Shown here one piece after another: positions 27,940 to 49,706 of a DNA stretch of 64,000 nucleotides. This DNA comes from Pedosphaera parvula Ellin514. Lineage in GTDB: Bacteria; Verrucomicrobiota; Verrucomicrobiia; Limisphaerales; Pedosphaeraceae. The position numbers and the translations under genes were made by a program. Under the pieces are notes generated by a model, which worked only from the letters and a program-made list of their open reading frames with translations, searched no databases and was not told the DNA's origin. Positions within the stretch are counted from its first letter, which is position 1, and each line of letters begins with the position of its first letter. The stretch spans positions 62,001 through 126,000 of the forward strand of contig NZ_ABOX02000009.1 of assembly GCF_000172555.1 (NCBI RefSeq). The letters run 5' to 3'.

Positions 27940-29037
27940 ATGAAACCAGTCTCCAAATACTTCTGCCTCCCACTATTCATTTTGCTCGTTGGTTGCAACA
28001 CACCAAATCAGACTATCCATGACTCTAAACTAAAAGCCTGCGAATCGGTGTGTGTTGTTCGTGTGGATTGTCATCAGACCCCGGAACTGACATCCTTTGC
28101 ACAACGTGCACAGGAGTTGGCCAACGATTTAGCTCCAAAGATAACAAAGCTCCTCGGAGAAAAGAAATTTCCTCACTTCAAAATCGTTTTTAAACAAAAC
28201 ACCGCCTGGGGAAGCGATGGTCTGGTCCCTGCATATGCCAGGGGACATACCATCTATCTCAGCGCTGATTGGCTTTCTAAATACCCGGATGATTTCGAAA
28301 TGAATTTAGCTCACGAAATGACCCACGTTATTCAAGGCTATTCGGCTAAGGCTCCGAGCTGCTGGACGGAAGGAATAGCCACCTACGTCGGTTTCAAACT
28401 TGGATATACAAATACATTAAATTGTGCCGAGTGTTCGGCGTCTCTTCCCCATTATACCTCGGGATACAATTGCGCGGGAGCGTTGCTTTTATATATTGAG
28501 GCCGCCCACGGTTCAGCGCTCGTTCGCCAACTCCATACTAAATTGCAACAGGGCCTGTACTCCGACAGCTTTTTCGCCGAAGCCACGGGAAAGTCCCTGG
28601 AGCAGTTGTGGACCGATTTTAAACAAACACCTCCTTTTACCTCGGCTGCTGCTCATAGACTGGAATTAGAGGCGTGGCTCAAATCCCCCGGCAAGAAGTC
28701 AGTCGCGGAAACAATGGCTCGAATGGCGGAATTTCTGAGAACCCAGCCAGGCGGGGCTTTCACCGCTGATGCCCAGATGTTTCTGATCGATCTCGCAAAT
28801 AAAGATTGTTTGCCGGGATTTGCAGGCACCGGCCCCGCCGGTCTGGCTTTTGAACGGGATGATTTGAATGCTCCAGTGGACTTCCCGATCTCACGCATCA
28901 TCCATTTCCTGAAGAAGGACGACCGTTTCCGGTACCATTACACCGTTGTGAAGGAATCCCCACAGAGTGCATGGAAACTGAGTAAGTCTTGGCGCACAAA
29001 CCCGGATGGCCGCATTTTAGCCATCGTACAGAAGTAA
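27940..29037 (+). CDS. BSP-family zinc metallopeptidase lipoprotein
   Basis: This 365-residue protein carries a lipoprotein signal: FILLVGCNT with the lipobox L-V-G-C at residues 16-19. The core holds H-E-M-T-H (HExxH) in NLAHEMTHVIQGY, followed by PSCWTEGIATYVGFKLGY, where the E-G-I-A segment is the hallmark of the plant 'basic secretory protein' peptidase family. It is predicted to be a zinc protease anchored in a membrane and facing the periplasm or outside. The C-terminal 100 residues are unassigned. Its pairing with the beta-helix gene suggests joint secretion. Confidence 0.8.
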   Translation: MKPVSKYFCLPLFILLVGCNTPNQTIHDSKLKACESVCVVRVDCHQTPELTSFAQRAQELANDLAPKITKLLGEKKFPHFKIVFKQNTAWGSDGLVPAYARGHTIYLSADWLSKYPDDFEMNLAHEMTHVIQGYSAKAPSCWTEGIATYVGFKLGYTNTLNCAECSASLPHYTSGYNCAGALLLYIEAAHGSALVRQLHTKLQQGLYSDSFFAEATGKSLEQLWTDFKQTPPFTSAAAHRLELEAWLKSPGKKSVAETMARMAEFLRTQPGGAFTADAQMFLIDLANKDCLPGFAGTGPAGLAFERDDLNAPVDFPISRIIHFLKKDDRFRYHYTVVKESPQSAWKLSKSWRTNPDGRILAIVQK

Positions 29038-30093: not shown

Positions 30094-31686
30094 ATGACGA
30101 ACAGTGACATGGAGTTGGTGCAGGAGTACGCTACGCGACACTCCGAGCAAGCTTTTGAAACGCTCGTATCGCGGCACGTTACCCTTGTTTATTCGTCCGC
30201 CCTGCGGCAGGTCCGCGATCCCCATCTGGCTGAGGAAATCACCCAGGCCGTTTTTATCATTCTCTCCCAAAAGGCCGGCTCACTCAGCCCTAAAGCCATT
30301 CTCCCCGGCTGGCTCTATCGCACTACCCGGTTTACGGCCAGCAAGGCGTTGCAACAACAATCGCGCCGCCAAAACCGCGAGCAGGAGGCGTACATGCAAT
30401 CCACCATTGAAGACACCGCAACCGAAGCCGCCTGGCAGGAATTGTCTCCCTTGCTTGACGAAACGATGGCTGGGTTGGGACAAACCGACCGCGATGCCTT
30501 GGTCCTGCGCTATTTGGAGAACAAAAGTTTACAGGAGGTGGGGATGGCTTTGGGCATGGAAGAACGAGCCGCACAGAAACGGGTGGCGCGGGGCTTGGAA
30601 AAGCTCCGCGCACTCTTTACCAAACGCGGCATAGTCCTTTCCTCAGCTCTGATTGCGGCAGCCATTTCCGCGAACTCCGCCTACGCCGTGCCGGTCGGCC
30701 TGGCAGCGACAATTTCTGCGACAACCGTCCAAGGTTCGGCCGCCGCAGCTTCAGTAACAACCTTCGTGAAAGGAACCCTCAAAATGATGAAATGGATGAA
30801 ACTCAAAGTCGCCGTCGGCGTGGGCATAGTCGCCCTAGTGGCCATCGGTGCCACCACGGTGGCTATTTCCCAAAGCAGTTTGCATGACAAACCCACCGCG
30901 AGAGAGATCGCCAAAAAATCCAAGGCTGCCTACGCAGCCCTTGTCAGTTACAGCGATGACGGAATCGTTGTGACGGAAGGCGCTGGCTCAACCACAACCA
31001 CGACGTTTAACACCCGACTGCTGCGCCCCAATCTATATAAGCTCGAATGGACTCAGACTGGCGGCTTTTTCAACATGACCGGAATTGTCTGGTCCGCTGG
31101 CAGCGGAGATTTTCTGCAAACCATAACGAAAGGGCAGCCACAGGATACCGAACCCAAGAAAATGCCAAACATGCAAACCGCACTGGCCTCAGCCAACGGT
31201 TATTCTGCCGCATCGACTGTACCTTCGGAATTTTGCAATCTCAAGTCTGGCGGCGTATTGGGCGTCCCTGGTTCAGATCTTGCCAAAACCACAATTGAGC
31301 CTGATGAGAAGGTGGGCGACGTTGATTGCTTTGTGATTTCGAGCGCAATGGAACCGATCAAAATTCCGTACGACAAGGGCACTACCGGGAACATCACGTG
31401 GAGACTTTGGATCGGCAAGCAGGACTACCTGATCCACAAAAGCCAGAGCATTACTGAAAACGCCTCTCTACCTCCTCTCAAAATCAGCGATGCAGCCGTC
31501 AAAAACGCGCTTGCAGAAAAGAATCAACCCGCTACCCCTGAGCTCATGGCAGCCCTAAGAGCTACAATGGAAAAAGACTACCAACAAGTTCGAAACAGTA
31601 TAAAGTCCGGCAAAGTGGTTTTCACCCAAACACACGAGCACATCTCTGTGAACCAGAAATTCTCACCATCGGATTTCGCCCGATAA
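30094..31686 (+). CDS. ECF sigma factor fused to a membrane segment and envelope domain
   Basis: This 530-residue protein begins with an ECF sigma factor: region 2 about residues 12-80 (EQAFETLVSRHVTLVYSSAL and AEEITQAVFIILSQKAG) and region 4 about residues 130-178 (RDALVLRYLENKSLQEVGMALGM). After an Ala-rich linker comes a membrane segment at residues 238-258 (KVAVGVGIVALVAIGATTVAI). The rest (residues 265-530) has a LolA-like or DUF2092-like look (KAAYAALVSYSDDGIVVTEGAGS) with SQSITENASLP later. A sigma factor anchored in the membrane with an envelope domain could be released by proteolysis or act in place. No anti-sigma factor gene is next to it. It stands before the giant protein gene at 32200. 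Confidence 0.8.
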   Translation: MTNSDMELVQEYATRHSEQAFETLVSRHVTLVYSSALRQVRDPHLAEEITQAVFIILSQKAGSLSPKAILPGWLYRTTRFTASKALQQQSRRQNREQEAYMQSTIEDTATEAAWQELSPLLDETMAGLGQTDRDALVLRYLENKSLQEVGMALGMEERAAQKRVARGLEKLRALFTKRGIVLSSALIAAAISANSAYAVPVGLAATISATTVQGSAAAASVTTFVKGTLKMMKWMKLKVAVGVGIVALVAIGATTVAISQSSLHDKPTAREIAKKSKAAYAALVSYSDDGIVVTEGAGSTTTTTFNTRLLRPNLYKLEWTQTGGFFNMTGIVWSAGSGDFLQTITKGQPQDTEPKKMPNMQTALASANGYSAASTVPSEFCNLKSGGVLGVPGSDLAKTTIEPDEKVGDVDCFVISSAMEPIKIPYDKGTTGNITWRLWIGKQDYLIHKSQSITENASLPPLKISDAAVKNALAEKNQPATPELMAALRATMEKDYQQVRNSIKSGKVVFTQTHEHISVNQKFSPSDFAR

Positions 31687-32199
31687 CTTCAACTTTTCCA
31701 ATCAGAATCGCCCGACGTTTTCCAAACGATTCATCCTTTGCTCGGCAGAGCAGGGGATAAAATCTATCAGACACCCTTCGCCGTTTTCAGGTGGATTGGA
31801 GTTTAATCAAACTTTCTCCCGTTGCGTTTGTTGGTTTCCTTAGTTCACTCAATCCCGATGCCAAACCGTCGCTCCCAAACTGGTTTTTCTCCGACAGACA
31901 TACCGCCCAATCCGGCCAGTTTGCATGGACACTTTTGTATCACTCTGGAACGCCCTTCCAACTGGTCTGCCGATGCCACCGATTCATCACCAGCGTTATC
32001 AAACCTGCTGAACTGAGGCAAAAACTCCAACAAACGCTCATTTTCCCGGCAAAAATCACCAACTTTCCTTAAGAACGGCACGAAACTTGCCTTTACGCAT
32101 GACGCTTTGCAGTCTCTATTGCGAACCCGACGGCCCACTCCGTGAATGGATGCCAGTTCCCAAATAGTCACCAAAGCTCAGCAATCTCAGAAGTCAACT
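31687..32199. other. Intergenic region of about 510 bp
   Basis: Nothing convincing is seen. Frames such as 31791-32072 lack ribosome sites and protein-like composition. The promoter of the giant gene at 32200 must lie here, and a binding site for a sigma factor of ECF type is a reasonable guess, but I cannot point to a specific pair of boxes. Frames at 32146-32199 extend the giant gene in frame but precede its signal peptide. Confidence 0.4.
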
Positions 32200-35100
32200 A
32201 TGATCAACGCCATCAAAATCGGGCTGAAATTATTAGCCGCTGCCTGCGCAGTCACATTTTCCGTTTCAGCCATTGCTCAGCCGAATCTGACCCCTTACCA
32301 ACCATCCGGTTGGTCGGACAAAATTGTTGTTTCTACCGTTACAGGAACATCAACCGACAGTTCCCCGCTGACCACAGCCGATACGCTGTACGTCGATTGG
32401 GCGGTCGCCAATTTGGGCGCGGCGGCTGGCAGTTTCACCACCTCGCTCTACGTGGACGGAGTGCTGAAGCATGCATGGAGCTCGGCCTCGCTGGCTGGCA
32501 GCTCCTATACTTATTTCCAGGATTATTCCATTGGCGTCCTAACCGCCGGTTCGCACACGATCCAGATCGTGGCGGATAGCGCTGGAACCGTTGCCGAGAG
32601 TAACGAAAGCGACAACTCCTACACCAAGACGATTACGGTCGGCGCTTCAGCTCTGCCGAATCTGACCCCTTATCAGCCATCAGGATGGTCGGACAAAATT
32701 GTGGTTTCGACCGGCACCGGCACTTCAACTGACAGCTCTCCCCTCATCACGACCAACACGCTCTATGTCGATTGGGCCGTGATCAACAATGGCGGCTCTG
32801 CGGCTGGCAGTTTCTCAACCTCTCTCTATGTTGATGGTGTCCTAAAGAACACATGGCCTTCGTCCTCGCTAGGCGTTAGCACTTACACCTATGCTCAGGA
32901 TTACTCCATCGGCGCCCTCACCGCTGGAAGCCATACCATCCAGATTACCACGGATACCGGCAGCACTGTCACCGAGAGCAGTGAAAGCGACAATTCCTAC
33001 ACTAAAACCATCACCGTTAGCGCGCCAGCTCTGCCAAATCTGTCTCCGCATCAACCTTCCGGCTGGGGAGACAAGCTGATTGTTTCGACCGTGACCGGCA
33101 CCTCCACGGACACCGCCGCGATCACAAGTGCGGACAACCTTTACATCGATTGGTCGGTGATCAACAACGGCACCGTTGCTTCCGGTTCCTTCACCGTGGG
33201 ATTATACGTGGATGGCGTGCTCAATCACTCCTGGTCTTCCAGCGGTTTAAATCCCAGCACCTACACTTACGTGCAGGACTATTCTCTCGGCGCTCTCAGC
33301 GCAGGCAGCCATACCATTCAAATCACCGCCGATACCGGTTCCACGGTTGTCGAAGTAAACGAGGGCGATAATTCCTACAGCAAAATAATCAACGTAACTG
33401 CCGCCAGTGCGCCCGCACCAACGCTCGGAACCCCGGCCAACGGCGCCACCGCGCAGTCGACAACTCCGGCTTTTACCTGGACTTCCGTGAGCAACGCCAC
33501 TTCCTACCGCATTATCGTCGCGACCAGTGCGGCTGATTTGCCGACCGATCCCACCGCCAGTTCCGGTGGCCCGAGCGTTGTTCTAAACACCACTTCCGGC
33601 TCAACCTCCTACACTCCGGTCACACCTTTGAACCCTGGCACCACTTATTACTGGGAAGTCCACGGCCGCAATGGCAGTGACATTGGCATCTGGTCCAGCG
33701 TGAACAGTTTCACCACGGCTGTTCCTCCGAGCGGGCTGACCATCATACCAACTTTCGATAGCTCCATCACCAGTGATCCCCAGGCCGCCCAAATTGAGGC
33801 CACCATTAATTCAGCCATTGCCGTTTACCAAAGCAATTTCTCCGACCCCATCACCGTCGCGATTACTTTCAAGAAGATGACGAGCGGGCTCGGTCTCAGC
33901 AGCGGAGTTTATTACCAGACTTATTCCTACTCGACCTACCGGGCGGCTCTGGCTTCTCATGCCACCACGACCGACGATGCCACGGCGCTTGCGTACTTGC
34001 CGAATGTTGCCAACAATCCTGTGAACGGCAACTCAAGCGTGAACGTCAAGCTCGCCCTCGCTCGGGCGCTGGGTTTCACAGCCAATCCCCCGGCAGGACA
34101 ACCTGACGGCACCGTCCAGTTGAACCTGGGAATTATGAACCTCTCCGCCGCCGCTAACGATCCAAGTAAATATTCGCTCTTTGGCACTGTCTCCCATGAA
34201 ATCGACGAAGTCCTCGGTTTCAGCTCGGCCCTCAATGGGCTGTCTAATGGCGCCCCGGCTCCAACCGGCGCCATATTTCCTGAAGATCTCTTCCGCTATG
34301 ATGCAAGCGGGTCACGAATTTTTTCGACGGATGCCAATGTCGCCAGCTACTTATCTTTCGATGGCACCACGCAGCTCGCCAGGTACAATCAGACCCAAGG
34401 CGGCGATTTCCAGGATTGGTATAGCTTTTATGGCGGTGTAACTCCCGAAGTGCAGGACGCATTTTCTCCCCCCGGTACATCTCCAGTCCTGGGCGTGGAA
34501 CTCCGGGTGCTGGATGCGATCGGCTACAACCGCGTTCTGCCTCCAAGCACAATCGTTGCCTCAGCGGGCAGTGGTGGCACTATCAGTCCGACCGGCTCCT
34601 TCTCGAAAAACACCGGTACCAGTCAGCTGTTCACCGCCACTCCCAATGCCAATTATGTCGTGAACCAATGGCTCGTGGATGGCAGTGTTGTACAGACAGG
34701 CGGTACCACCTACACGTTGTCGTATATCCAGACCAACCATAATGTACAGGTGAGCTTTACTTTCGTGCCGCCAAAAACGGACCAGACCATCACCTTCGCC
34801 TCGCTGGCAAACAAGGCGTATGGCGACCCATCATTTACCATCAGCGCCACTGCCAGCTCGGGCTTGGCCGTCAGTTACAGCATCCTCTCCGGCCCCGCAA
34901 CGATTTCCGGGAATACCGTGATGATCACCGGCGCGGGCACGGTCACTGTCCGGGCATCTCAAAGCGGCAATGGTAGCTACAATCCTGCACCGGACGTCGA
35001 TCAGTCCTTCACCGTGGCAAAAGCGAATCAAACCATCACGTTCGCCGCATTGGGAAATAAAACCTACGGCGATGGCTCATTCGCAGTGAGCGGAACTGCC

Positions 35101-36954
35101 AACTCCGGTTTGGCTGTCAGTTACAGCATCCTCTCCGGTCCGGCAACGATTTCCGGAAATACCGTCACGATAACGGGTGCAGGTTCAGTCACCGTGCGAG
35201 CCACACAAGCTGGCAATGCAAACTACAATGGAGCGCCAAACGTGGATCAAACCTTCACCGTGGCGAAGGCAAATCAAACGATCACGTTTGCTGCCCTAGG
35301 CAATAAAATCTACGGTGATGCTTCATTTACGGTCGGTGCCACCGCCAGCTCGGGTTTATCCGTTGCCTTCAGTATCTTCTCTGGCCCTGCCACGATTTCT
35401 GGAAACACCATTACGATTACCGGTGCGGGCGCAGTCACTGTGCGCGCGTCGCAAGCCGGCAATACGAACTACAATGGAGCGCCAAACGTGGATCAAACCT
35501 TCACCGTGGCGAAGGCAAATCAAACGATCACGTTTGCTGCCCTAGGCAATAAAATCTACGGTGATGCTTCATTTACGGTCGGTGCCACCGCCAGCTCGGG
35601 TTTATCCGTTGCCTTCAGCATTTTCTCCGGCCCGGCCACGATTACCGGAAACACCATTACGATAACGGGTGCGGGCACAGTCACCGTCCGGGCTTCGCAA
35701 GGTGGCAATACGAACTACAATTCAGCCGTGGACGTGGATCAGTCCTTCACGGTTGCGAAGGCCAATCAAACAATCACGTTTGCCTCGCTGGCAAACAAGG
35801 CATATGGCGACCCATCATTTACCGTCAGCGCCACTGCCAGCTCCGGTTTGGCTGTCAGTTACAGCATCCTCTCCGGCCCCGCAACGATTTCCGGGAATAG
35901 CGCGACAATCACTGGTGTGGGCACGGTTACAGTGCGGACTTCCCAGGCCGGCAATGCGAACTTTAACCCGGCACCGGACATGGACCAGTCATTCACCGTG
36001 GCGAAGGCGAATCAAACGATCACGTTTGCTGCCTTGGGAAATAAAACCTACGGTGATGTGGCGTTCACAGTCGGCGGAACTGCCAGTTCCAGTTTGCCGG
36101 TTGGCTTTAGCATCCTCTCCGGCCCCGCAACGATTTCCGGGAATACCGTGACAATCACTGGCGTGGGCACGGTCATAGTACGGGCTTCTCAAAGCGGCAA
36201 TGGTAGCTACAATCCCGCACCGGACGTCGATCAATCCTTCACCGTGGCAAAAGCGAATCAAACCATCACGTTCGCCGCATTGGGAAATAAAACCTACGGC
36301 GATGGCTCATTCGCAGTGAGCGCAACTGCCAACTCCGGTTTGGCTGTCAGTTTCAGCATCCTCTCCGGTCCGGCAACGATTTCCGGAAACACCATTACGA
36401 TAACGGGTGCAGGCACAGTCACCGTCCGGGCGTCGCAAATTGGCAATACGAACTACAATTCAGCCGAGGACGTGGATCAATCCTTCACGGTTGCGAAGGC
36501 AAATCAAATGATCGCATTCAATCCCATCCCGAACAAATCAATCGGCGAGCCCGCCTTTGCTGTGAATGGAACGGCAAGCTCAGGATTGCCAGTGACGTTC
36601 AGTATCCTCTCCGGCCCGGCGACCATTTCCGCAGGCTTGGTCACGTTCACCGATACCGGCGTTGTCGTCGTGCGGGCTTCGCAAGGAGGCAGCGCCAACT
36701 ACAACGCCGCCCCGAACGCTGATCAATCTTTCACCGTCTACCCGACGCCGACCCTCACTCTGGTTCAAACAGGCCAGAACATCGTCATATCGTGGCCGAC
36801 GAACGTTAGCGGCTTCAATTTGGAAAGTACCGCGAATCTGCTTTCCGTTTCATCCTGGACTCCAGTTTTACCAGCGCCCGCGATTATTAATGGCCAATAC
36901 GTCGTCACGAATCCAACTACTAACAGCGTAATGATTTACCGGCTTAAGAAATAA
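32200..36954 (+). CDS. Giant secreted protein: CARDB repeats, protease-like domain, eight MBG repeats
   Basis: A 1584-residue protein with signal peptide (LKLLAAACAVTFSVSAIAQ) from ATG 32200. Order: three CARDB-like repeats of about 125 residues, each opening P-N-L-T/S-P-x-Q-P-S-G-W; a fibronectin-III-like domain; a protease-like domain with S-H-E-I-D-E-V-L-G-F near nt 34195, recalling the HEI[ST]EVMGR signature of a PEP-CTERM-associated metalloprotease family; an InlB-like repeat; eight MBG-like repeats of exactly 82 residues (nt 34783-36750); and a C-terminal domain (TLVQTGQNIVISWPTNVSGF) that also ends another large protein in this window. It is a surface or secreted protein. The third zinc ligand is not evident, so activity is uncertain. 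Confidence 0.85.
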   Translation: MINAIKIGLKLLAAACAVTFSVSAIAQPNLTPYQPSGWSDKIVVSTVTGTSTDSSPLTTADTLYVDWAVANLGAAAGSFTTSLYVDGVLKHAWSSASLAGSSYTYFQDYSIGVLTAGSHTIQIVADSAGTVAESNESDNSYTKTITVGASALPNLTPYQPSGWSDKIVVSTGTGTSTDSSPLITTNTLYVDWAVINNGGSAAGSFSTSLYVDGVLKNTWPSSSLGVSTYTYAQDYSIGALTAGSHTIQITTDTGSTVTESSESDNSYTKTITVSAPALPNLSPHQPSGWGDKLIVSTVTGTSTDTAAITSADNLYIDWSVINNGTVASGSFTVGLYVDGVLNHSWSSSGLNPSTYTYVQDYSLGALSAGSHTIQITADTGSTVVEVNEGDNSYSKIINVTAASAPAPTLGTPANGATAQSTTPAFTWTSVSNATSYRIIVATSAADLPTDPTASSGGPSVVLNTTSGSTSYTPVTPLNPGTTYYWEVHGRNGSDIGIWSSVNSFTTAVPPSGLTIIPTFDSSITSDPQAAQIEATINSAIAVYQSNFSDPITVAITFKKMTSGLGLSSGVYYQTYSYSTYRAALASHATTTDDATALAYLPNVANNPVNGNSSVNVKLALARALGFTANPPAGQPDGTVQLNLGIMNLSAAANDPSKYSLFGTVSHEIDEVLGFSSALNGLSNGAPAPTGAIFPEDLFRYDASGSRIFSTDANVASYLSFDGTTQLARYNQTQGGDFQDWYSFYGGVTPEVQDAFSPPGTSPVLGVELRVLDAIGYNRVLPPSTIVASAGSGGTISPTGSFSKNTGTSQLFTATPNANYVVNQWLVDGSVVQTGGTTYTLSYIQTNHNVQVSFTFVPPKTDQTITFASLANKAYGDPSFTISATASSGLAVSYSILSGPATISGNTVMITGAGTVTVRASQSGNGSYNPAPDVDQSFTVAKANQTITFAALGNKTYGDGSFAVSGTANSGLAVSYSILSGPATISGNTVTITGAGSVTVRATQAGNANYNGAPNVDQTFTVAKANQTITFAALGNKIYGDASFTVGATASSGLSVAFSIFSGPATISGNTITITGAGAVTVRASQAGNTNYNGAPNVDQTFTVAKANQTITFAALGNKIYGDASFTVGATASSGLSVAFSIFSGPATITGNTITITGAGTVTVRASQGGNTNYNSAVDVDQSFTVAKANQTITFASLANKAYGDPSFTVSATASSGLAVSYSILSGPATISGNSATITGVGTVTVRTSQAGNANFNPAPDMDQSFTVAKANQTITFAALGNKTYGDVAFTVGGTASSSLPVGFSILSGPATISGNTVTITGVGTVIVRASQSGNGSYNPAPDVDQSFTVAKANQTITFAALGNKTYGDGSFAVSATANSGLAVSFSILSGPATISGNTITITGAGTVTVRASQIGNTNYNSAEDVDQSFTVAKANQMIAFNPIPNKSIGEPAFAVNGTASSGLPVTFSILSGPATISAGLVTFTDTGVVVVRASQGGSANYNAAPNADQSFTVYPTPTLTLVQTGQNIVISWPTNVSGFNLESTANLLSVSSWTPVLPAPAIINGQYVVTNPTTNSVMIYRLKK
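34783..36750 (+). repeat. Eight tandem 246-bp MBG-type coding repeats
   Basis: Unit starts (the CAAACCATCACG box, with variants) fall at 34783, 35029, 35275, 35521, 35767, 36013, 36259 and 36505, exactly 246 bp apart each time. A 152-bp stretch at 35221-35372 is identical to 35467-35618, and the junction of units 1 and 2 closely matches the junction of units 6 and 7, 1230 bp away. This pattern points to recent unequal recombination within the array. The units code for beta-sandwich modules of the MBG type. Confidence 0.95.
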
Positions 36955-42344: not shown

Positions 42345-43982
42345 TCACAATTTTGCGGCAGCCGGTTTGAGCTTTGGAAGAAAGGGCCGAATACCTTCAG
42401 GAAGCTGTTCTTCTTTGACATAAGTAACCCTGGAGGGAAGCCATGGACTTCCCGCCTGCGATCCACGATGTCCTTCCCAATATCGAAATTCCCCTTTGAA
42501 ATCCCCGTTGGTTTCCAAGACCGCCGTTTTGATCAAGTCTTCACCGCCGAAGTTATTATACCTGCCCTCAAATGTCCCTGATACCTGTTCCCAGACAACG
42601 TCAGCCCGTTCTTTTCCCAAAGTTGCAGTAATGGAATCCCGCAGGCGTTCCTTCAAAGCCTGTCCCTCTGTGGCAAAGGACATGGTGACCTGGCTCAACG
42701 ATTGCCGGTCCCCAATCCCAAATTCCGCCGGTGCAACATTAGTGACGTAAGTGTGTGCCTGGACCTGCTGTTGATAACTGAGCATGAAATTCTGAAATAA
42801 TGTTTGGACCTCAGCATCTTCATTCTGCGTCAGGCCAAGCGACTCCGTTAATGGCGCCGCGAGTGAACCATCCTCTCCCAGCACATAATCCTGTTCTCGT
42901 CGATATCCGCCTCTGGGACGGGGAATTTGCACCGATTCCGAAAGCGTCAGGCTGCCGGCAATGCTCTTCGGCAGCCGCACGTAATCCGAATCGTCAGACC
43001 ACGAATAAAGGTTCGTCGCCGCTGCAGCGCGCGCAGCCAAAGCCGACGCGCGCTGCTCAGCTATCGCCCCACCAAGTCTCTTCAAATTACTCTCAGCGGC
43101 TTGCAACTTTCTTTGTGTCTCGTCCAAATGGCCCTGACGGTCGCTGAGTTGTTTGTTGATTTGCAAAATCTCCTCCCGGAGTAATGTCTGCTCCCTTCCA
43201 GCCTTGGCTGAAGCGTGCCATTCATAGGTCACAGGCCCGGCAGCCACCAGCGCACAAACCACCACCACTTGCGTTTTGGTAAGTCCCATAAAAGTTCCTA
43301 TAAGCAGGCCGAGGCCGGTCACAGACCCTACGCTTCCTGCGGTTATTGCTCCTTTGGTAATAATGATGGAAAGGCCCGACGGCGCAGTTTGAGCGGCCGC
43401 TTTCAACGCCGCAGCGGTGGTTGCTACCGCCGGAACGGCATAACCGCGACGCCGGAAAAACTGGGTGAGCTTCTCCAGCGCCTTCTCAATGCGCTTGCGT
43501 GCCGCATCATCCCCGGTTCCCAAAGCTTTCCCGATTTCCAGATGGTTTTGCTCTTCGAAATACCGAAGCATCAGTGCTTGTCGCTCCGGTTCCCGCAATT
43601 CCATCAAACCTTCATCCAATACGCTGGTCATCGACGTGAGCAAAGATTCTTCGTCCTTCATAGTCGTTCCAAGTTCGATGGCATTCTGCTCACGACGCTG
43701 TCTCCGATACTCCCCGCGCCACCATTGGCGGGATTCCAGCAAGGTCGTTTTATGCAGCCATCCGGTTAAGGTGTTATCTCCTTGAAGCCTTGCCGCTTTG
43801 CGCGCCAGGGCAATGAAGACGTTTTGCGTGACCTCCTGTGCCGCGGCCGCATCGTTCAACTGCCGGTTTGCCGTGGCGAACACCAGGTCCACGTGTCGCT
43901 CTACGAGTGATCTAAAGGCGGTTTCAGATCCGCGCTTCACATACTCCCGAAGCAAATCCCGATCTGTCATTGGCTCAGCCAT
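42345..43982 (-). CDS. ECF sigma factor with membrane segment, coiled coil and envelope domain
   Basis: This 545-residue protein opens with an ECF sigma factor: region 2 at about residues 15-80 (ETAFRSLVERHVDLVFATANR, then AAAAQEVTQNVFIALARKA) and region 4 at about residues 130-178 (RQALMLRYFEEQNHLEIGKALGT). Two hydrophobic stretches follow (about residues 203-233 and 237-253), then a coiled coil (LLREEILQINKQLSDRQGHL) and a C-terminal domain. With one or two membrane passes the final domain lies either in the periplasm or the cytoplasm; topology is uncertain. The next gene downstream encodes a membrane protein with the same final domain. It is divergent from the ceramidase/cytochrome fusion gene. 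Confidence 0.82.
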   Translation of the reverse strand: MAEPMTDRDLLREYVKRGSETAFRSLVERHVDLVFATANRQLNDAAAAQEVTQNVFIALARKAARLQGDNTLTGWLHKTTLLESRQWWRGEYRRQRREQNAIELGTTMKDEESLLTSMTSVLDEGLMELREPERQALMLRYFEEQNHLEIGKALGTGDDAARKRIEKALEKLTQFFRRRGYAVPAVATTAAALKAAAQTAPSGLSIIITKGAITAGSVGSVTGLGLLIGTFMGLTKTQVVVVCALVAAGPVTYEWHASAKAGREQTLLREEILQINKQLSDRQGHLDETQRKLQAAESNLKRLGGAIAEQRASALAARAAAATNLYSWSDDSDYVRLPKSIAGSLTLSESVQIPRPRGGYRREQDYVLGEDGSLAAPLTESLGLTQNEDAEVQTLFQNFMLSYQQQVQAHTYVTNVAPAEFGIGDRQSLSQVTMSFATEGQALKERLRDSITATLGKERADVVWEQVSGTFEGRYNNFGGEDLIKTAVLETNGDFKGEFRYWEGHRGSQAGSPWLPSRVTYVKEEQLPEGIRPFLPKLKPAAAKL

Positions 43983-44132
43983 CTCTCCTTATTACTGCCG
44001 CAGAACCGGCAAAACCGGAATTTTATTTTGTTCGGACCTGTCGATTACATGAATATGGGTCTGTTCTATGCATCTAAGTTAAGCATAATCATTAGGTATC
44101 ACAGCTTTTTACATAACATTGGCCGATCCAAC

Positions 44133-47100
44133 ATGAAAAAATACCTCCTTTTTGGAATGGTCTTGGCTCGTATTGCAAGCTCCCAACTCGCCCACGCTCA
44201 ATGGACCGATGGCCAGCATCTTGCAGGCATGATTCTCGAGACGAACAGGACCAGTGCTGAGCGAGAGTCATTCATTAACGGTCATCCGTGGGAAGCGGAC
44301 GTGTTGGTCTCAGTCATGACGACGAATCTTCCGAACGACAGCGTGGAAGAGTCCGCGCGCATTCCGTGGATCTGGCGTGTCGCCATCGCTGCCGGGAAGC
44401 GAAACAATGCCATTGAGCTGAAATCCTTGCTTAATGTCGCCTTGCCAAAAGCCAACGAGCCTCTCCGTGACTGGCAGGCCGTGGTCATTGGCGGCGGTAT
44501 CATCAATGGGCTCAGTCTTCAAGGCATCTGGCCGGATGATCGCGTGGCAGAACTGCTCCTTGGTGATAAGGACTTGCAGACCCGCTGGGACCGCACCCTC
44601 GATCTCGCCTCTGCCATGGCCGAGAATGTCCAAGTCAAGAGCGGCACCCGATATGACGCGCTTCGAATCATCGGTGTAGACACATGGGAACGCCGCGGTG
44701 CTCAGCTGGAAAAGTATCTGGCGAAGGATGCCAATGCCGAGCTGCAGCAAGGGGCGGTGAGTGGCCTTGCTGACATGAAATCCAAAAATGTTGGCCCCAC
44801 ACTCGTTAAGAACCTGCAAAACCTCTCGGATCGTAATCGCGCTTTTGCCTTGGATGCTCTGCTGCGTGACGATTCCCGGGTTGCTGTCTTGCTCGATGCC
44901 GTGGATCAAAAGAAGGTCTCCCGCTCGACTCTCGGTGTTGAACGAATCGGCAAGTTGGAAGCAGTTTCGAACAAAAAACTCCGCGCGCGTGCTCAAAAAG
45001 ATTTTGCTCGTACTTTTCCTGTAAATGGCGGCTCCACCTATCATGTCGGTATCGCCAAGGTTGATATTACGCCAAATTATCCTATCCGCCTGAACGGTTA
45101 TCTCGCTCGCAAAGCCGAGTCGACCGGTGTGCTGCATCCCCTCTATGCCAAGGCTCTGGCCATCGGTGCCGATAAAGAAGGGCCCGCCATTCTCATTTCG
45201 GTGGATAACTGTATCGTTCCGAAAAAGGTGCGCGACGAACTCGCCGGGCGACTCGCTAAGAAGGGCATTGCCTCTGAAAAGTTCGCTATGCTGGTTTCTC
45301 ATACCCACACCGCCCCGAAACTCGCCGGTGCTGCCGATAACATTTATGGCTCCGACATTCCCGCTGAAGATCAAGCCCACATCGACCGTTACACGCGCGA
45401 GTTTGTTGATGCCTTGGAGAAGGTTGCCATTACTGCGCTGAAGAATCGTGCTCCTGCCAAATTGGCTTGGGGACAAACCAAGGCAGGCTTCGGCGGAAAT
45501 CGTCGAACCAAGGGCGGGCCAGTGGACCACGATGTTCCGGTTCTCCTCGTGACTCAACCAAATGGAACACTGCGGGGCATCCTGGTCAGTTACGCCTGTC
45601 ATTGCACCACGCTGGATGGAACGGAAACCAGAATCTGCCCTGACTGGGCCGGTTATACTCAACAATACCTTGAAGATGTTTACCCTGGCGTCGTCGCCAT
45701 GACTGGCATCGGCTGCGGGGCAGATCAAAATCCTTTTCCACGCCCGGGAGTGGACATGGCCAAACAGCACGGCAGCGAACTCGCGTCTGCAGTAGACGAA
45801 TTACTCTTGAAGGATCTGACTCCTCTGAATGGTAAACTGGAATGCCGCAGCAAACAAATTGCCCTCCCATTCGACACCTTGCCCACACGTGAGGAATACC
45901 AGAAGCGCGCCGAGGATCAGGATAAATCTCACTATCCCATTATCTACCACGCCAAGAAGCAGCTCGCCCGACTTGATCGCGGCGAAAAGTTGATGACCGA
46001 ACTGCCGTATCTCGTTCAGGAATGGAATTTCGGCAACGACCTCGCCATGGCCTTCCTTCCCGGTGAAGTGGTGGTTGATTATTCCCTGCGTCTCAAAAAG
46101 GAATTTGATGCGTCACATCTCTGGGTGAACGGATATGCCAACTACGTTCCTTGCTACATTCCCTCAAAGCGCATCTGGAGCGAAGGCGGTTACGAGGGTG
46201 GGGGAGCGATGGTCTATTACGACCTGCCAACCCGGTTGTCGGAAAAAACTGAAGACCTCATCGTGAGCGCGGTTCATGACATCGTGCCGAAGCAATTTGT
46301 TTCCAACGAGCAGGTCTCTGAGTTTCCTGCTCCTCTATCTCCGCAGGAAGCCCTCAAGTCCTTCCGCACCAAACCGGGTTTCACAGTCGATCTCGCCGCC
46401 AGCGAACCTCAGATCGTCGACCCCGTTGCCATCGACTTCGGCACCGACGGCAAGCTCTGGGTGGTCGAAATGCACGACTACCCGATGGGCGTAAAGGGCG
46501 ACTATGCACCTGGCGGCCGTGTAAAATTGCTGACCAGCAGCAAGCACGACGGTCATTACGACAAGTCAACCACCTTCATCGAAAATATCCCGTTTCCAAC
46601 CGGCATCATGCAATGGCGCAAAGGTGTGCTCATCTGCACCGCCCCTGATATTTTGTATGCAGAGGACACCGATGGCGATGGCAAAGCTGACGTGGTCAAA
46701 AAGCTTTTCACCGGATTTGCCACACATAACTTTCAGGCCCGCGTGAACGGTCTTCGTTGGGGGCTTGATAATTGGGTCTATGCAGCAGCAGGTCTTTTCG
46801 GTGGGACCATCCGCAGCGAACTTGCTGGAAAAATCTACGAGCTCAGCGGTCGCGATTTTCGTTTCAATCCGGACACCGGCGATTTTGAACCAGTGAGCGG
46901 ACTGAGCCAGCAAAGCCGTGTGCGCGATGATTGGGGCAATTGGTTTGGCTGCGATAACAGCAATCTCGCCTGGAACTGGCCCTTGGAAGAACGCTACATT
47001 CGCCGAAATCCTTTCGTAGCCGCCCCCGAGCCTCGGGTGACCGTTCCTCAATATCCCGACCCGAATGTCCTTTTTCCCGTCAGCCAAACGTTGGAACGCT

Positions 47101-49706
47101 TCAATCATCCCGAATCTGCCAATCGCACTACTTCAGCCTGCGGCATTGGTCTTTATACTGATATTCTGCTCGGCCAGGATTATTACGGGAACTCCTTCAC
47201 CTGCGAACCGGTGCACAACCTCGTTCGCCGCCTGGTGCTCAAAACCGATGGCATTGCTTTCTCCGGCTCCAAGCCTGATGATGAGCAGCAAACGGAATTC
47301 TTTGCGTCGACAGATAGTTGGTCCCGTCCAGTGGAAGTTCGCACCGGCCCTGATGGTGCCTTGTGGATCTCTGACATGTACCGCTTCGTTATTGAACATC
47401 CCAAGTGGATTCCCGCCGAACGCCTCGCCAAGCTCGATGTCCGTGCCGGCGATGACAAAGGCCGCGTTTATCGTGTCTATCCCACAGCCGGAAAGCTGCG
47501 CCCTATTCACGATCTAACCAGCCTTTCCACCGCCAAACTGGTTGCCTTGCTCGATTCTCCTAATGGAACCGAACGTGATCTCATCCACCGTGAGCTGTAT
47601 CAACGTGCCGATAAATCAGCCATCAAGCCTCTGGAACAACTCGCTTCGAAGAGTTCCAATCCTGCCGTGCGCGTACAAGCTCTTTGCGCTTTGGAAGGTT
47701 TGAAGGGCCTGCAACTGGAAACTCTTCAGCAGGCGCTTGCCGATAAGGATTCCAACGTGCGCCGTCAGGCCATGAGACTCAGCGAAAATTTTCTGCGCGG
47801 TACATCAGCCTCGGCTCTCGGTGAATCGCTGTTGAAACTCGCATCAGATTCCGATCCCGGCGTCCGTTTCCAGCTGGCGCTGACCCTGGGCGAGTGGGAC
47901 GACATACGCGCCGGTCAGGCTCTGGGAAATCTCGCCAGATCCAGCTTGTCTAATCATTGGATGCGGGCGGCCGTGCTTAGTTCCGCTGTGAACCAGCCCG
48001 GTGAAATTCTTAAAGGCGTCCTGGCCCTGCCGGCCGACACTGCCAATCGTGGCGAAATGGTGGGGCAGTTGATTGCCACTGCTTCCGGTGCAAAAAATCC
48101 TAAAACATTCGAATCCATCCTTGTTGCCATTGCTCCTGTAAATGGAGAAAATATTCCTCAATGGCAACTGGTTGCCTTGGGCAATCTGCAAGAAGCCCTG
48201 GGCCGCCAAAAGCTCTCGCTCAACTCCTTTGCTGAATCTTCAGATGCTTCCATCCGGGAAGCGGCGAAACGCATCCAGTCAGGCATCGCCTCCGCCGGAG
48301 CCATTGCCGCCAATTCCAAGGCTCCGGTCGCTGATCGTGAAGCATCGGTGCGACTGCTGGCCTGGTCAAACGATGAACGCGACCTGAAGTCGCTTGTCTC
48401 CCTTGCCACTCAAACCACCAATACGCGCCTTCAAAAGGCCGCGAATAAATCATTGCATGTTCAACGCAATCCCAAGGTCCCTGAGATGCTGCTCGCGGGT
48501 TGGCCGCAATACTCCCCATCCGTGCGCGAACATGTGCTCGACATCTTGTTGAGCCGTGATGAAGGCATTGACCAACTTTTCAGCGCCGTGGAGCAGAAAA
48601 CCATTGCGCCGACGGAAATTCCCATTGCCAACCGTCAGCAGTTGCAAAAATCTTCCAACCCAAAAATCCAGCAGCGAGCCGCCGCGCTCCTGCCTTTGCA
48701 TACGAGCGATCGCACCCAGGTGTTGAAAAAGTTTTCAGATGTGGCCCATCTCGCGGGCAATCCCGAGCATGGCGCGCAAATCTTCACCGAAACTTGCGCC
48801 ACCTGTCACCATCTCAAGGGCGTGGGTAATTCTGTCGGGCCCGACCTGGCTGCGCTTAACGACAAATCAATTGAAGACTTCCTGGTCGCCATCCTGGATC
48901 CCAACGCCGCCATTGAACCTCGCTTCATCCAATACAATATTGAAGTGAAGGATGGTCGTTCGCTCTCCGGCGTGATTCAAAACGAAACCGCCACCAGCCT
49001 CACGCTGGTTCAACCTGGCGGCATTCACGAAACTATCCTGCGCTCGGAAATCTCCGAAATGCGCGCCTCGAGTCTTTCACTGATGCCTGAAGGCTTGGAG
49101 GAAGGTAAAAAGCCCCAGGATTTCGCGGATTTAATCGCGTATTTGAAATCTCAACCTTCACAATTCGGCAGCGCCAGCCCGGAAAAGGCCGCGGCGGCGC
49201 GTAAGAGTTTCCTGGCCGATGGCTATGATCTGGCCCGGGTTGTCTCTGCTTCTGAAGCCATGCCTTATCCAGGCTGGCTGGGCACGTTGATGCTTTCCCA
49301 CTGCCGTCAAACGGACGGGAATTCAAAAGTCGAATGGGAAACCAAGCCGGTTGACGATCTCAATCCCCACGGCATGAATACTTTTCGCGTTCCAGTTGCC
49401 ATGGGACTCTTATCCAATCCGTCAGGTAAGTTTTATTTGAAGGTGAATGGACGCTCCGGGGTTGACTTCGACGTCTCCATCAACGATGCCGTTTGGAAAA
49501 ATCCTGCTTCCGAAGTCATCTTGCAATACCATGTCATGGAAAATAATCCAGAAGACAGCAACGGAGTGCTTACCATTAGCGTTCGTGGTGAGTGGTTGAA
49601 GTCTGGCAAACCCATTGTCTTTGAAGTCACCGGTTCGGCCTCGAACAGCCAGCGCTGGTTCGGCATCTATACCATGGAACCGCAATCTCAGGCCAGTCGG
49701 AACTGA
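44133..49706 (+). CDS. Giant fusion: ceramidase-like domain plus PVC-type beta-propeller, HEAT and cytochrome c
   Basis: A 1857-residue exported protein (signal LLFGMVLARIASSQLAHAQ). First comes a HEAT-like segment (nt 44840-45020). A neutral-ceramidase-like domain follows: HVGIAKVDITPNYPIRLNGYL, metal motifs S-H-T-H-T and C-H-C-T-T, and the G-C-G-A-D-Q-N-P loop, where the usual nucleophile motif N-S-G-D-V-S-P-N is altered. Next is a PVC dehydrogenase-like beta-propeller (from nt 46380, AIDFGTDGKLWVVEMHDYPMG), HEAT repeats, and a class I cytochrome c with C-A-T-C-H near nt 48800. A 170-residue unknown domain ends it. A single chain joining a hydrolase and an electron carrier is unusual. Substrate is unknown. 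Confidence 0.85.
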   Translation: MKKYLLFGMVLARIASSQLAHAQWTDGQHLAGMILETNRTSAERESFINGHPWEADVLVSVMTTNLPNDSVEESARIPWIWRVAIAAGKRNNAIELKSLLNVALPKANEPLRDWQAVVIGGGIINGLSLQGIWPDDRVAELLLGDKDLQTRWDRTLDLASAMAENVQVKSGTRYDALRIIGVDTWERRGAQLEKYLAKDANAELQQGAVSGLADMKSKNVGPTLVKNLQNLSDRNRAFALDALLRDDSRVAVLLDAVDQKKVSRSTLGVERIGKLEAVSNKKLRARAQKDFARTFPVNGGSTYHVGIAKVDITPNYPIRLNGYLARKAESTGVLHPLYAKALAIGADKEGPAILISVDNCIVPKKVRDELAGRLAKKGIASEKFAMLVSHTHTAPKLAGAADNIYGSDIPAEDQAHIDRYTREFVDALEKVAITALKNRAPAKLAWGQTKAGFGGNRRTKGGPVDHDVPVLLVTQPNGTLRGILVSYACHCTTLDGTETRICPDWAGYTQQYLEDVYPGVVAMTGIGCGADQNPFPRPGVDMAKQHGSELASAVDELLLKDLTPLNGKLECRSKQIALPFDTLPTREEYQKRAEDQDKSHYPIIYHAKKQLARLDRGEKLMTELPYLVQEWNFGNDLAMAFLPGEVVVDYSLRLKKEFDASHLWVNGYANYVPCYIPSKRIWSEGGYEGGGAMVYYDLPTRLSEKTEDLIVSAVHDIVPKQFVSNEQVSEFPAPLSPQEALKSFRTKPGFTVDLAASEPQIVDPVAIDFGTDGKLWVVEMHDYPMGVKGDYAPGGRVKLLTSSKHDGHYDKSTTFIENIPFPTGIMQWRKGVLICTAPDILYAEDTDGDGKADVVKKLFTGFATHNFQARVNGLRWGLDNWVYAAAGLFGGTIRSELAGKIYELSGRDFRFNPDTGDFEPVSGLSQQSRVRDDWGNWFGCDNSNLAWNWPLEERYIRRNPFVAAPEPRVTVPQYPDPNVLFPVSQTLERFNHPESANRTTSACGIGLYTDILLGQDYYGNSFTCEPVHNLVRRLVLKTDGIAFSGSKPDDEQQTEFFASTDSWSRPVEVRTGPDGALWISDMYRFVIEHPKWIPAERLAKLDVRAGDDKGRVYRVYPTAGKLRPIHDLTSLSTAKLVALLDSPNGTERDLIHRELYQRADKSAIKPLEQLASKSSNPAVRVQALCALEGLKGLQLETLQQALADKDSNVRRQAMRLSENFLRGTSASALGESLLKLASDSDPGVRFQLALTLGEWDDIRAGQALGNLARSSLSNHWMRAAVLSSAVNQPGEILKGVLALPADTANRGEMVGQLIATASGAKNPKTFESILVAIAPVNGENIPQWQLVALGNLQEALGRQKLSLNSFAESSDASIREAAKRIQSGIASAGAIAANSKAPVADREASVRLLAWSNDERDLKSLVSLATQTTNTRLQKAANKSLHVQRNPKVPEMLLAGWPQYSPSVREHVLDILLSRDEGIDQLFSAVEQKTIAPTEIPIANRQQLQKSSNPKIQQRAAALLPLHTSDRTQVLKKFSDVAHLAGNPEHGAQIFTETCATCHHLKGVGNSVGPDLAALNDKSIEDFLVAILDPNAAIEPRFIQYNIEVKDGRSLSGVIQNETATSLTLVQPGGIHETILRSEISEMRASSLSLMPEGLEEGKKPQDFADLIAYLKSQPSQFGSASPEKAAAARKSFLADGYDLARVVSASEAMPYPGWLGTLMLSHCRQTDGNSKVEWETKPVDDLNPHGMNTFRVPVAMGLLSNPSGKFYLKVNGRSGVDFDVSINDAVWKNPASEVILQYHVMENNPEDSNGVLTISVRGEWLKSGKPIVFEVTGSASNSQRWFGIYTMEPQSQASRN

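Follow-up and report, generated by a model that had tools for sequence, protein, structure and literature searches.

Why would a sigma factor carry, on the same polypeptide, a hydrophobic segment and a large C-terminal domain of its own? The question arises twice within a 64,000-nucleotide stretch of the Pedosphaera parvula Ellin514 genome (contig NZ_ABOX02000009.1, positions 62,001 to 126,000; hereafter the window), where two genes for extracytoplasmic function (ECF) sigma factors, here called P0001 and P0002, continue well beyond the sigma domain (Table 1). Based upon the analyses presented below, we consider it probable that both are one-polypeptide transmembrane sigma factors with exchangeable external sensors and a sigma-less partner, and that they represent a large family in the Limisphaerales (Pedosphaera-like Verrucomicrobia).

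Table 1. Features of the two sigma factor loci (coordinates are those of the window)
Feature	Coordinates	Strand	Basis or remark
P0001, putative membrane-anchored ECF sigma factor 1, 530 residues	30094..31686	+	Open reading frame, Pfam, homologues
P0001 sigma region 2 to region 4, residues 1-176, predicted cytoplasmic	30094..30621	+	Pfam PF04542 24-92, PF08281 121-171
P0001 conserved Ala-rich linker, residues 177-229	30622..30780	+	Not transmembrane by hydrophobicity
P0001 Met codons 231 and 232, candidate nested start	30784..30789	+	Sigma-less sensor of 299-300 residues
P0001 single predicted transmembrane segment, residues 240-258	30811..30867	+	
P0001 predicted extracytoplasmic sensor domain, residues 262-530	30877..31683	+	RseB/LolA/LprG-like fold
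P0002, putative membrane-anchored ECF sigma factor 2, 545 residues	42345..43982	-	Open reading frame, Pfam, homologues
P0002 Met codon 232, candidate nested start	43287..43289	-	Local structure signal weaker than in P0001
P0002 putative transmembrane segment, about residues 239-255	43218..43268	-	Set by eye, weakly scored
P0002 C-terminal putative sensor domain, residues 325-545	42348..43010	-	No Pfam family
g3, sigma-less partner of P0002	41435..42466	-	Probable start 42331; 12/12 loci, profile match to sigma sensor half
Secreted metalloprotease-like/CARDB protein beside P0001	32146..36954	+	No such association beside orthologues
Divergent neighbour of P0002 with ceramidase-like, DUF7133, HEAT and cytochrome c parts	44028..49706	+	No such association beside orthologues

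Both frames are open at these coordinates, and the plus strand at the P0002 locus is interrupted by stops. Pfam identified sigma region 2 and region 4 in both proteins, all above the gathering score and with no region 3, and assigned no family at E 0.01 to the C-terminal 270-290 or so residues of either. The open reading frames (ORFs) and Pfam confirm what a sequence-only reading of this DNA had claimed, namely that two ECF sigma factors extend past region 4 into an Ala-rich linker and a large C-terminal domain. Of the several hydrophobic segments which that reading placed after the linker, one transmembrane segment is predicted rather than several, since by hydrophobicity the linker is too polar for a second helix. 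The absence of an adjoining anti-sigma gene holds for zf-HC2, the only anti-sigma family searched genome-wide: it is missing beside P0001 and P0002 and from all of the 33 fusions described below, the single match in the genome (C4:69326-69418) adjoining a separate ECF frame of 249 residues (C4:69499-70008).

When the organism's own genome (7.41 Mb in 102 contigs) was searched with P0001, 33 frames of 367-1112 residues, the query among them, matched at E 1.8e-39 or better; the next match reached only E 5.9e-14, and a search with P0002 returned the same 33 paralogues. Sigma region 2 is matched 62 times in this genome at E 1e-4, and these matches include the 33 fusions; to judge by these profiles, roughly every second sigma factor found comes with a membrane anchor of its own and a predicted external sensor. 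Alignments of P0001 to the other 32 paralogues end by residue 291 of 530, so the part held in common is the sigma domain, the linker and the helix (linker and helix consensus RGVTLSA..LA....AN.VQAAP.GLA ... LK.M.W.K.K). Pfam regions 2 and 4, as well as TIGR02937, were found in 32 of 32 paralogues scanned. Over its full length P0001 is conserved in two loci (L053 and L054; here and below L numbers denote retrieved stretches), which match residues 4-530 with 50% identity in the best segment; the named organisms among its matches are Limisphaerales bacterium, uncultured Verrucomicrobiales bacterium and Pedosphaera sp.

Outside this genome, a model of the anchor matched 63 of the 116 genomes of the order with a completeness of 90% or more, with 33 copies here and a maximum of 13 elsewhere, and 9 of 145 genomes in a phylum-wide sample, our own genome included. 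Adding the relatives (100 stretches taken from the anchor places listed; L090 and L096, which duplicate L054 and L055, were excluded) brings the total to 161 distinct fusions, drawn from no fewer than 54 genomes. This number, and the absence of a stop inside the match in 32 of the 33 paralogues, indicate that the fusions are genuine and not chance extensions or frameshift or gene-call artefacts, a doubt which had been attached to the original observation. The remaining paralogue (C5_110501; L047:8499-8562) has an in-frame TAA near the expected start, and its remaining frame lacks the first sigma part; it was omitted from the own-paralogue alignments (32 of 33) and read from its first in-frame start in later tests. 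A second irregular copy (C26_82302; L044:7979-9082, minus strand) ends early at 367 residues, with a sensor-like remainder in the next, overlapping frame (L044:7447-8064, minus strand), and represents a broken gene, an assembly error or a frameshift. Two or more sigma fusions occur within one short stretch in L031, L044, L053, L136, L160, L164, L179, L196 and L213. Two ECF proteins with several hydrophobic segments (L034:9359-11590, plus strand, 743 residues; L035:6599-8230, minus strand, 543 residues) lie outside the anchor family.

While the anchor is shared, the sensor often differs between paralogues. For the P0001 sensor, AlphaFold2 modelling from four natural sequences gave a best model with a predicted local distance difference test score (pLDDT) of 80 and a predicted template modelling score (pTM) of 0.76, the other four models reaching 58-74. 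Foldseek found 47 matches in the Protein Data Bank (PDB) at E 0.001 or better, with LprG, LolA, RseB and MucB at the top of the list, and VIA-align gave Z 15.4 to LolA (4mxt) and 14.7 to RseB (2v43), in each case over 171 of 269 model residues. The sensor is thus predicted to have the RseB/LolA/LprG fold; a PDB sequence search with the sensor alignment gave one weak match only (E 0.023). A common fold does not by itself establish a function. In the sigma-E pathway RseB acts as an envelope sensor, and the title of 2v43 also calls it a sensor. Since RseB, LolA and LprG hold lipid or lipoprotein, a lipid or lipoprotein cue would be our best guess for P0001.

Of 196 genomes of the order, 19 contain the P0001-type sensor and 12 the P0002-type. 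The former also occurs free-standing, behind N-termini which by eye resemble signal peptides (L093, L099, L101 and L102), and as the terminal part of a Ser/Thr kinase that has hydrophobic stretches (L103:6590-9538, plus strand), that is, one sensor with two outputs; such copies form the pattern one would expect of a sensor. In a genome of the same genus a gene which by eye resembles a Ser/Thr kinase follows a P0001-like sigma gene (L055:9301-10185, plus strand). Elsewhere in the family Pfam recognised in the sensor position POTRA (C4_85349, E 1e-15), the SecD P1-head (C14_97166, E 8e-21, recurring in a second genome at L179 with E 2.5e-28) and DUF3738 (C19_110459, E 7e-26), while matches to GspD N0 and secretin fell below the family cut-offs. 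The 108 added fusions, one of which has a C-terminus too short for the scan, supplied 107 further sensors, among which, for the 25 of 41 families listed, there were six DUF3738, three TPR, two HEAT, one RCC1, one SecD head and one carboxypeptidase-regulatory domain. As the remaining 16 of the 41 families match at most one member each, most of the 107 sensors are without a Pfam match.

Directly downstream of the P0002-type sigma gene, in all 12 loci examined (L032, L033 and L105-L114), lies g3, whose product combines an N-terminus resembling a signal anchor with a coiled-coil-like stretch and a domain that is a homologue of the P0002 sensor half (hhalign probability 99.6, E 9e-24). Judged by the longest ORFs, the spacing of the two genes ranges from a 136-base overlap to a 2-base gap in 11 loci, and in L114 they overlap as well. 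Against 819 proteins, the g3 profile found the 12 g3 products and 11 P0002-type sigma factors below E 1e-7, and then nothing below E 0.09. The twelfth sigma frame (L114, 8170-9843) was not kept by the gene caller, so that the profile and codon tests include 11 of the 12 sigma genes; G006, one of the 12 genomes with the P0002-type sensor, has a frame with a stop and was left out of the locus set. Sigma-less copies also follow sigma genes of other types: after 9 bases with 59% identity in L030, after 33 bases with 59% over 293 residues from the first residue in L190, and after 3 bases with 28% identity in L215. In L190, and within two residues in L030, the free-standing sensor half begins at the Met homologous to one conserved inside the fusions.

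This internal Met lies within anchor columns 54-67 in 154 of the 161 distinct fusions, where 27% would be expected from Met frequency, and it is accompanied by a marked bias in synonymous codons. The G+C content of third codon positions (GC3), normalised by amino acid and gene, deviates by -0.164, -0.145 and -0.264 (standard error, SE, 0.02) in three successive six-column blocks (columns 49-66) of these 154 fusions, compared with -0.06 to +0.08 in the other anchor blocks; in 53 of 54 genomes the mean is below zero. It is present in both Met classes (-0.223 in 82 members and -0.136 in 70). As a control, 70 internal helices of 49 other proteins had a GC3 residue before the helix of -0.04 at most, while 33 unambiguous real ATG starts showed a dip of similar size (-0.176, SE 0.035). 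Around these 154 Mets the mRNA also has less structure than when its synonymous codons are permuted, with a mean z of +1.24 compared with 0.01 for the 1222 other in-frame Mets, and in 85 of the 154 fusions the target Met is the extreme in-frame Met for low structure. We propose that a nested start before the helix makes sigma-less sensors.

Several observations weigh against this interpretation and against the wider picture. No Shine-Dalgarno excess over synonymous codon resampling was found before the internal Met (49 genes, P = 0.86), the 33 unambiguous ATG starts in the same loci having a match in 27% of cases. The longest-ORF starts of the sigma genes themselves show no GC3 dip, and structure is stronger at the starts nearest the sigma domain (mean -8.8 kcal/mol) than at the internal Met (mean -3.4 kcal/mol), the start calls being uncertain in both comparisons. 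P0002 has only a weak structure signal (P 0.5 at one offset and 0.03 at another), and the 11 P0002-type genes display the dip even though they have g3, so that a separate partner gene does not replace it. A nine-member class without Met at columns 61-62 keeps a weak dip (-0.091, SE 0.049). The sequences are related and the counts therefore not independent. In the full-length P0001 model, finally, the linker and helix stretch (195-265) is largely below pLDDT 50, and autoinhibition cannot be read from it.

The signal might instead mark some other nucleic-acid element, such as an internal promoter, an RNA element or a sequence kept by sensor-swapping recombination; it does sit at the junction where sensors are exchanged, and both the missing Shine-Dalgarno excess and the dip in the nine-member class would suit such an element. 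Against this, the third positions of two Met classes that differ in sequence have more A and less G and do not become T-rich, the free-standing genes of L030 and L190 start at the homologous Met, and members without the Met are flat: the mean structure z is 0.04 (range -1.1 to 0.7) in six with no Met at columns 59, 61, 62 or 64 (members without column 62 being skipped), and the GC3 residue at columns 61-66 is +0.03 (SE 0.095) in seven. We would allow such an element a real, if minor, share of the probability. The nested start in its widest form has, in our view, a little less than an even chance: nearly every gene of the family would be two genes in one, the sigma-less receptor from the nested start would have the same specificity as the full-length protein, pair with it and set its threshold, and in some lineages it would have been copied out as a downstream gene (g3; L030 and L190). 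The family would then be a class of transmembrane receptors, comparable to one-component receptors, with sigma output and envelope-machinery sensors.

How might such a protein work? We infer that the cytoplasmic sigma domain, tied through the conserved Ala-rich linker to one membrane helix, would be held off promoters until the exchangeable domain outside, sensing some envelope state, is engaged. As partner or competitor the sensor would have a copy of its own anchor-sensor half that lacks the sigma domain, provided either by a separate downstream gene (g3 for P0002) or by the nested start at the conserved Met. Upon the signal the sigma domain would be freed by regulated proteolysis, as in IutY of Pseudomonas putida, or the membrane complex would be rearranged. 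ToxR and CadC are membrane-bound transcription factors, and one could imagine that, as in these, nothing is released: the tethered sigma factor would recruit RNA polymerase at the membrane and the sensor would only alter dimerisation. The lack of a recognised anti-sigma domain (by Pfam, and for zf-HC2 genome-wide), the coiled-coil-like stretches and homologous partner, both of which suggest dimerisation, and the long linker, disordered in the model, fit this arrangement. We nevertheless think it rather unlikely, as the genome has matches to M50-family proteases (best E 4e-47) and the fused membrane ECF factor with a shown mechanism, IutY, uses proteolysis (PMC8999054).

The tethered, externally sensing protein which we prefer also depends on the C-terminal domain being outside. 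The 15 residues preceding the helix carry a mean net charge of +2.0 in the 33 own members and those following it +0.1, the preceding side having the higher charge in 26 and the two sides being equal in 4; in 20 relatives the means are +2.4 and -0.05, with a higher charge on the preceding side in 14 and equality in 4. No further helix was detected on the hydrophobicity scale downstream of the anchor helix in the members scanned. Judged by eye, the Ala-x-Ala pattern of the linker could also suggest an internal site for signal peptidase. The linker was considered as a second helix, which would bring the C-terminus inside, and rejected: none of 33 own and none of 20 related segments fell below the hydrophobicity threshold (best 19 residues). 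The same crude scoring, with Hessa scale values, passes only one third of the putative helices (median 3.0 in own members, 1.7 in relatives), so that for many coiled-coil members, P0002 included, the prediction of a single membrane pass is weak; a transmembrane helix with an external C-terminal domain is predicted for P0001 and weakly scored for P0002 and two thirds of the family. The C-terminal domains might then be cytoplasmic, with the helix merely peripheral or the linker a second helix, and act like cytoplasmic scaffolds, as the TPR, HEAT or RCC1/WD40-like domains of some members would also suggest. The positive-inside charge, the signal-peptide-like N-termini of the free-standing sensor copies and sensors of POTRA, SecD P1-head and RseB/LolA type make this very doubtful. 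An external position agrees with the sensor types found there (POTRA, SecD P1-head and DUF3738), and these sequence features make it likely that P0001 and P0002 are membrane-anchored sigma factors with their own C-terminal domain as sensor.

That each sigma factor is dedicated to the adjoining giant secreted protein, as first supposed from their adjacency in the window, is the least probable explanation, being scarcely credible despite a slight excess of secreted-looking neighbours (32 of 62 vs 114 of 308 other genes by a crude signal-peptide rule, one-sided P 0.023) and the DUF7133-type genes, like the second giant, immediately adjoining three other fusions (L152, L205 and L218), for no giant neighbour was called at the other P0001-type loci, the upstream genes at P0002-type loci are mostly unrelated to one another, and proteins of at least 1000 residues are not enriched (2 of 62 immediate neighbours vs 8 of 308 other genes in the own-genome stretches). 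An alternative count gives 2 giants in 66 flanks, and the number rises by one if a 109-residue opposite-strand ORF between P0001 and its large neighbour is ignored. The fetched stretches are short, a long gene in them can hardly be anything but a neighbour, and the DUF7133 adjacency is therefore hard to weigh. Genes in the orthologue loci were called by a simple script, and since the own-genome stretches overlap a few genes were counted twice. The first giant resembles genes beside sigma factors in L104 and L026 over only some 70 C-terminal residues. Giants as dedicated sigma targets were accordingly rejected. The sequence-only reading, which had these sigma factors sensing envelope state and switching on neighbouring surface proteins, thus keeps its first half, given the charge distribution and periplasmic-type domains, and loses its second; g3, which it overlooked, is the neighbour conserved beside P0002-type sigma factors. 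What it called a "1584-residue MBG protein" is encoded by an ORF of 1602 codons, with matches to metalloprotease family NF038122 and to CARDB.

The second giant combines a neutral ceramidase-like part with DUF7133 (heme-binding type of the Planctomycetes-Verrucomicrobia-Chlamydiae group), HEAT repeats and a cytochrome c domain, and upstream of P0001 lies a gene for a lipoprotein-like BSP-family peptidase (27940-29037). Prepilin-like genes (N-terminal methylation motif, some DUF1559-like) are located directly downstream of sigma fusions in L027, L038, L040, L041, L047 and L048 of our own genome and in L092, with three in tandem in L041. Counted on the same strand, this holds for 5 of 33 own fusions vs 6 of about 337 other genes (Fisher P 0.0013), an association noticed late and with small numbers.

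Fused membrane ECF factors as such are already known, from ECF48, ECF52 and ECF53, IutY and planctomycete ECF proteins. The P0001 sensor resembles RseB/MucB of the sigma-E/AlgU systems, a protein of the same fold that senses the envelope upstream of an ECF sigma factor. RseB is a periplasmic protein in its own right and acts on an anti-sigma factor, whereas the RseB-fold domain is covalently part of P0001 and no zf-HC2 anti-sigma gene is near. In the Actinobacteria, ECF48, ECF52 and ECF53 (model SCO4117 of Streptomyces coelicolor) combine an ECF domain, a transmembrane part and an external sensor in one protein, and release by proteolysis has been proposed for ECF52 (PMC5826349, PMC8999054). 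The Limisphaerales fusions are predicted, P0001 more clearly than P0002, to share this order of parts. They differ in that the actinobacterial proteins are described with a zinc-finger between sigma domain and helix, of which Pfam finds none here, and in that the Limisphaerales sensors vary widely between paralogues; ECF52 is, moreover, described as exclusive to Actinobacteria. IutY (ECF243) is a sigma factor fused to a membrane-bound half and its release by Prc and RseP has been demonstrated (PMC8999054). P0001 and P0002 are likewise predicted to be fused to a membrane-bound half. IutY-type proteins have a FecR-like anti-sigma half and a TonB-dependent receptor gene. Pfam found no FecR match in P0001 or P0002; unlike IutY, the Limisphaerales fusions contain no recognised anti-sigma domain, and a sigma-less copy accompanies some members.

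The expanded ECF factors of planctomycetes (Gemmataceae), to which ECF57 belongs, resemble the Limisphaerales proteins in having many paralogues extended at the C-terminus. WD40 is described as abundant in ECF57, which also has two conserved cysteines linking region 2 and region 4 (PMC8999054), and planctomycete ECF proteins, some with WD40, were found in Triton- or sodium dodecyl sulfate-soluble fractions of Tuwongella (PMC8567305, PMC11032199, PMC8999054). Their sensors are unlike those of the Limisphaerales fusions: Pfam found no WD40 in P0001 or P0002 and, within the same families listed, one WD40_RLD/RCC1 member among the 107 relatives. A plasmid search with the P0001 sigma domain and anchor found one planctomycete sigma factor, from an Isosphaeraceae plasmid (L225), which by eye has a similar layout; the anchor model has no match to this single example (score -4.2), so common descent of the anchor with planctomycete ECF factors is not shown.

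In the literature covered, which took in few subscription papers and had the 2021 ECF reclassification outside it, we found no description of the verrucomicrobial family or of POTRA- or SecD-fused sigma factors, nor of a one-anchor family with many periplasmic-type sensors, the sigma-less partner or the codon signal. The known membrane-fused ECF factors belong to few groups and are described as built on an anti-sigma-like part. The family offers a direct test case for a sigma factor working from the membrane, a strong synonymous-site signal for a conserved nested start, and natural chimeras that engineering could take up as they stand. It appears that in this bacterial order sigma factors have been turned into a receptor family, with one anchor, exchangeable sensors and 33 copies in one genome.

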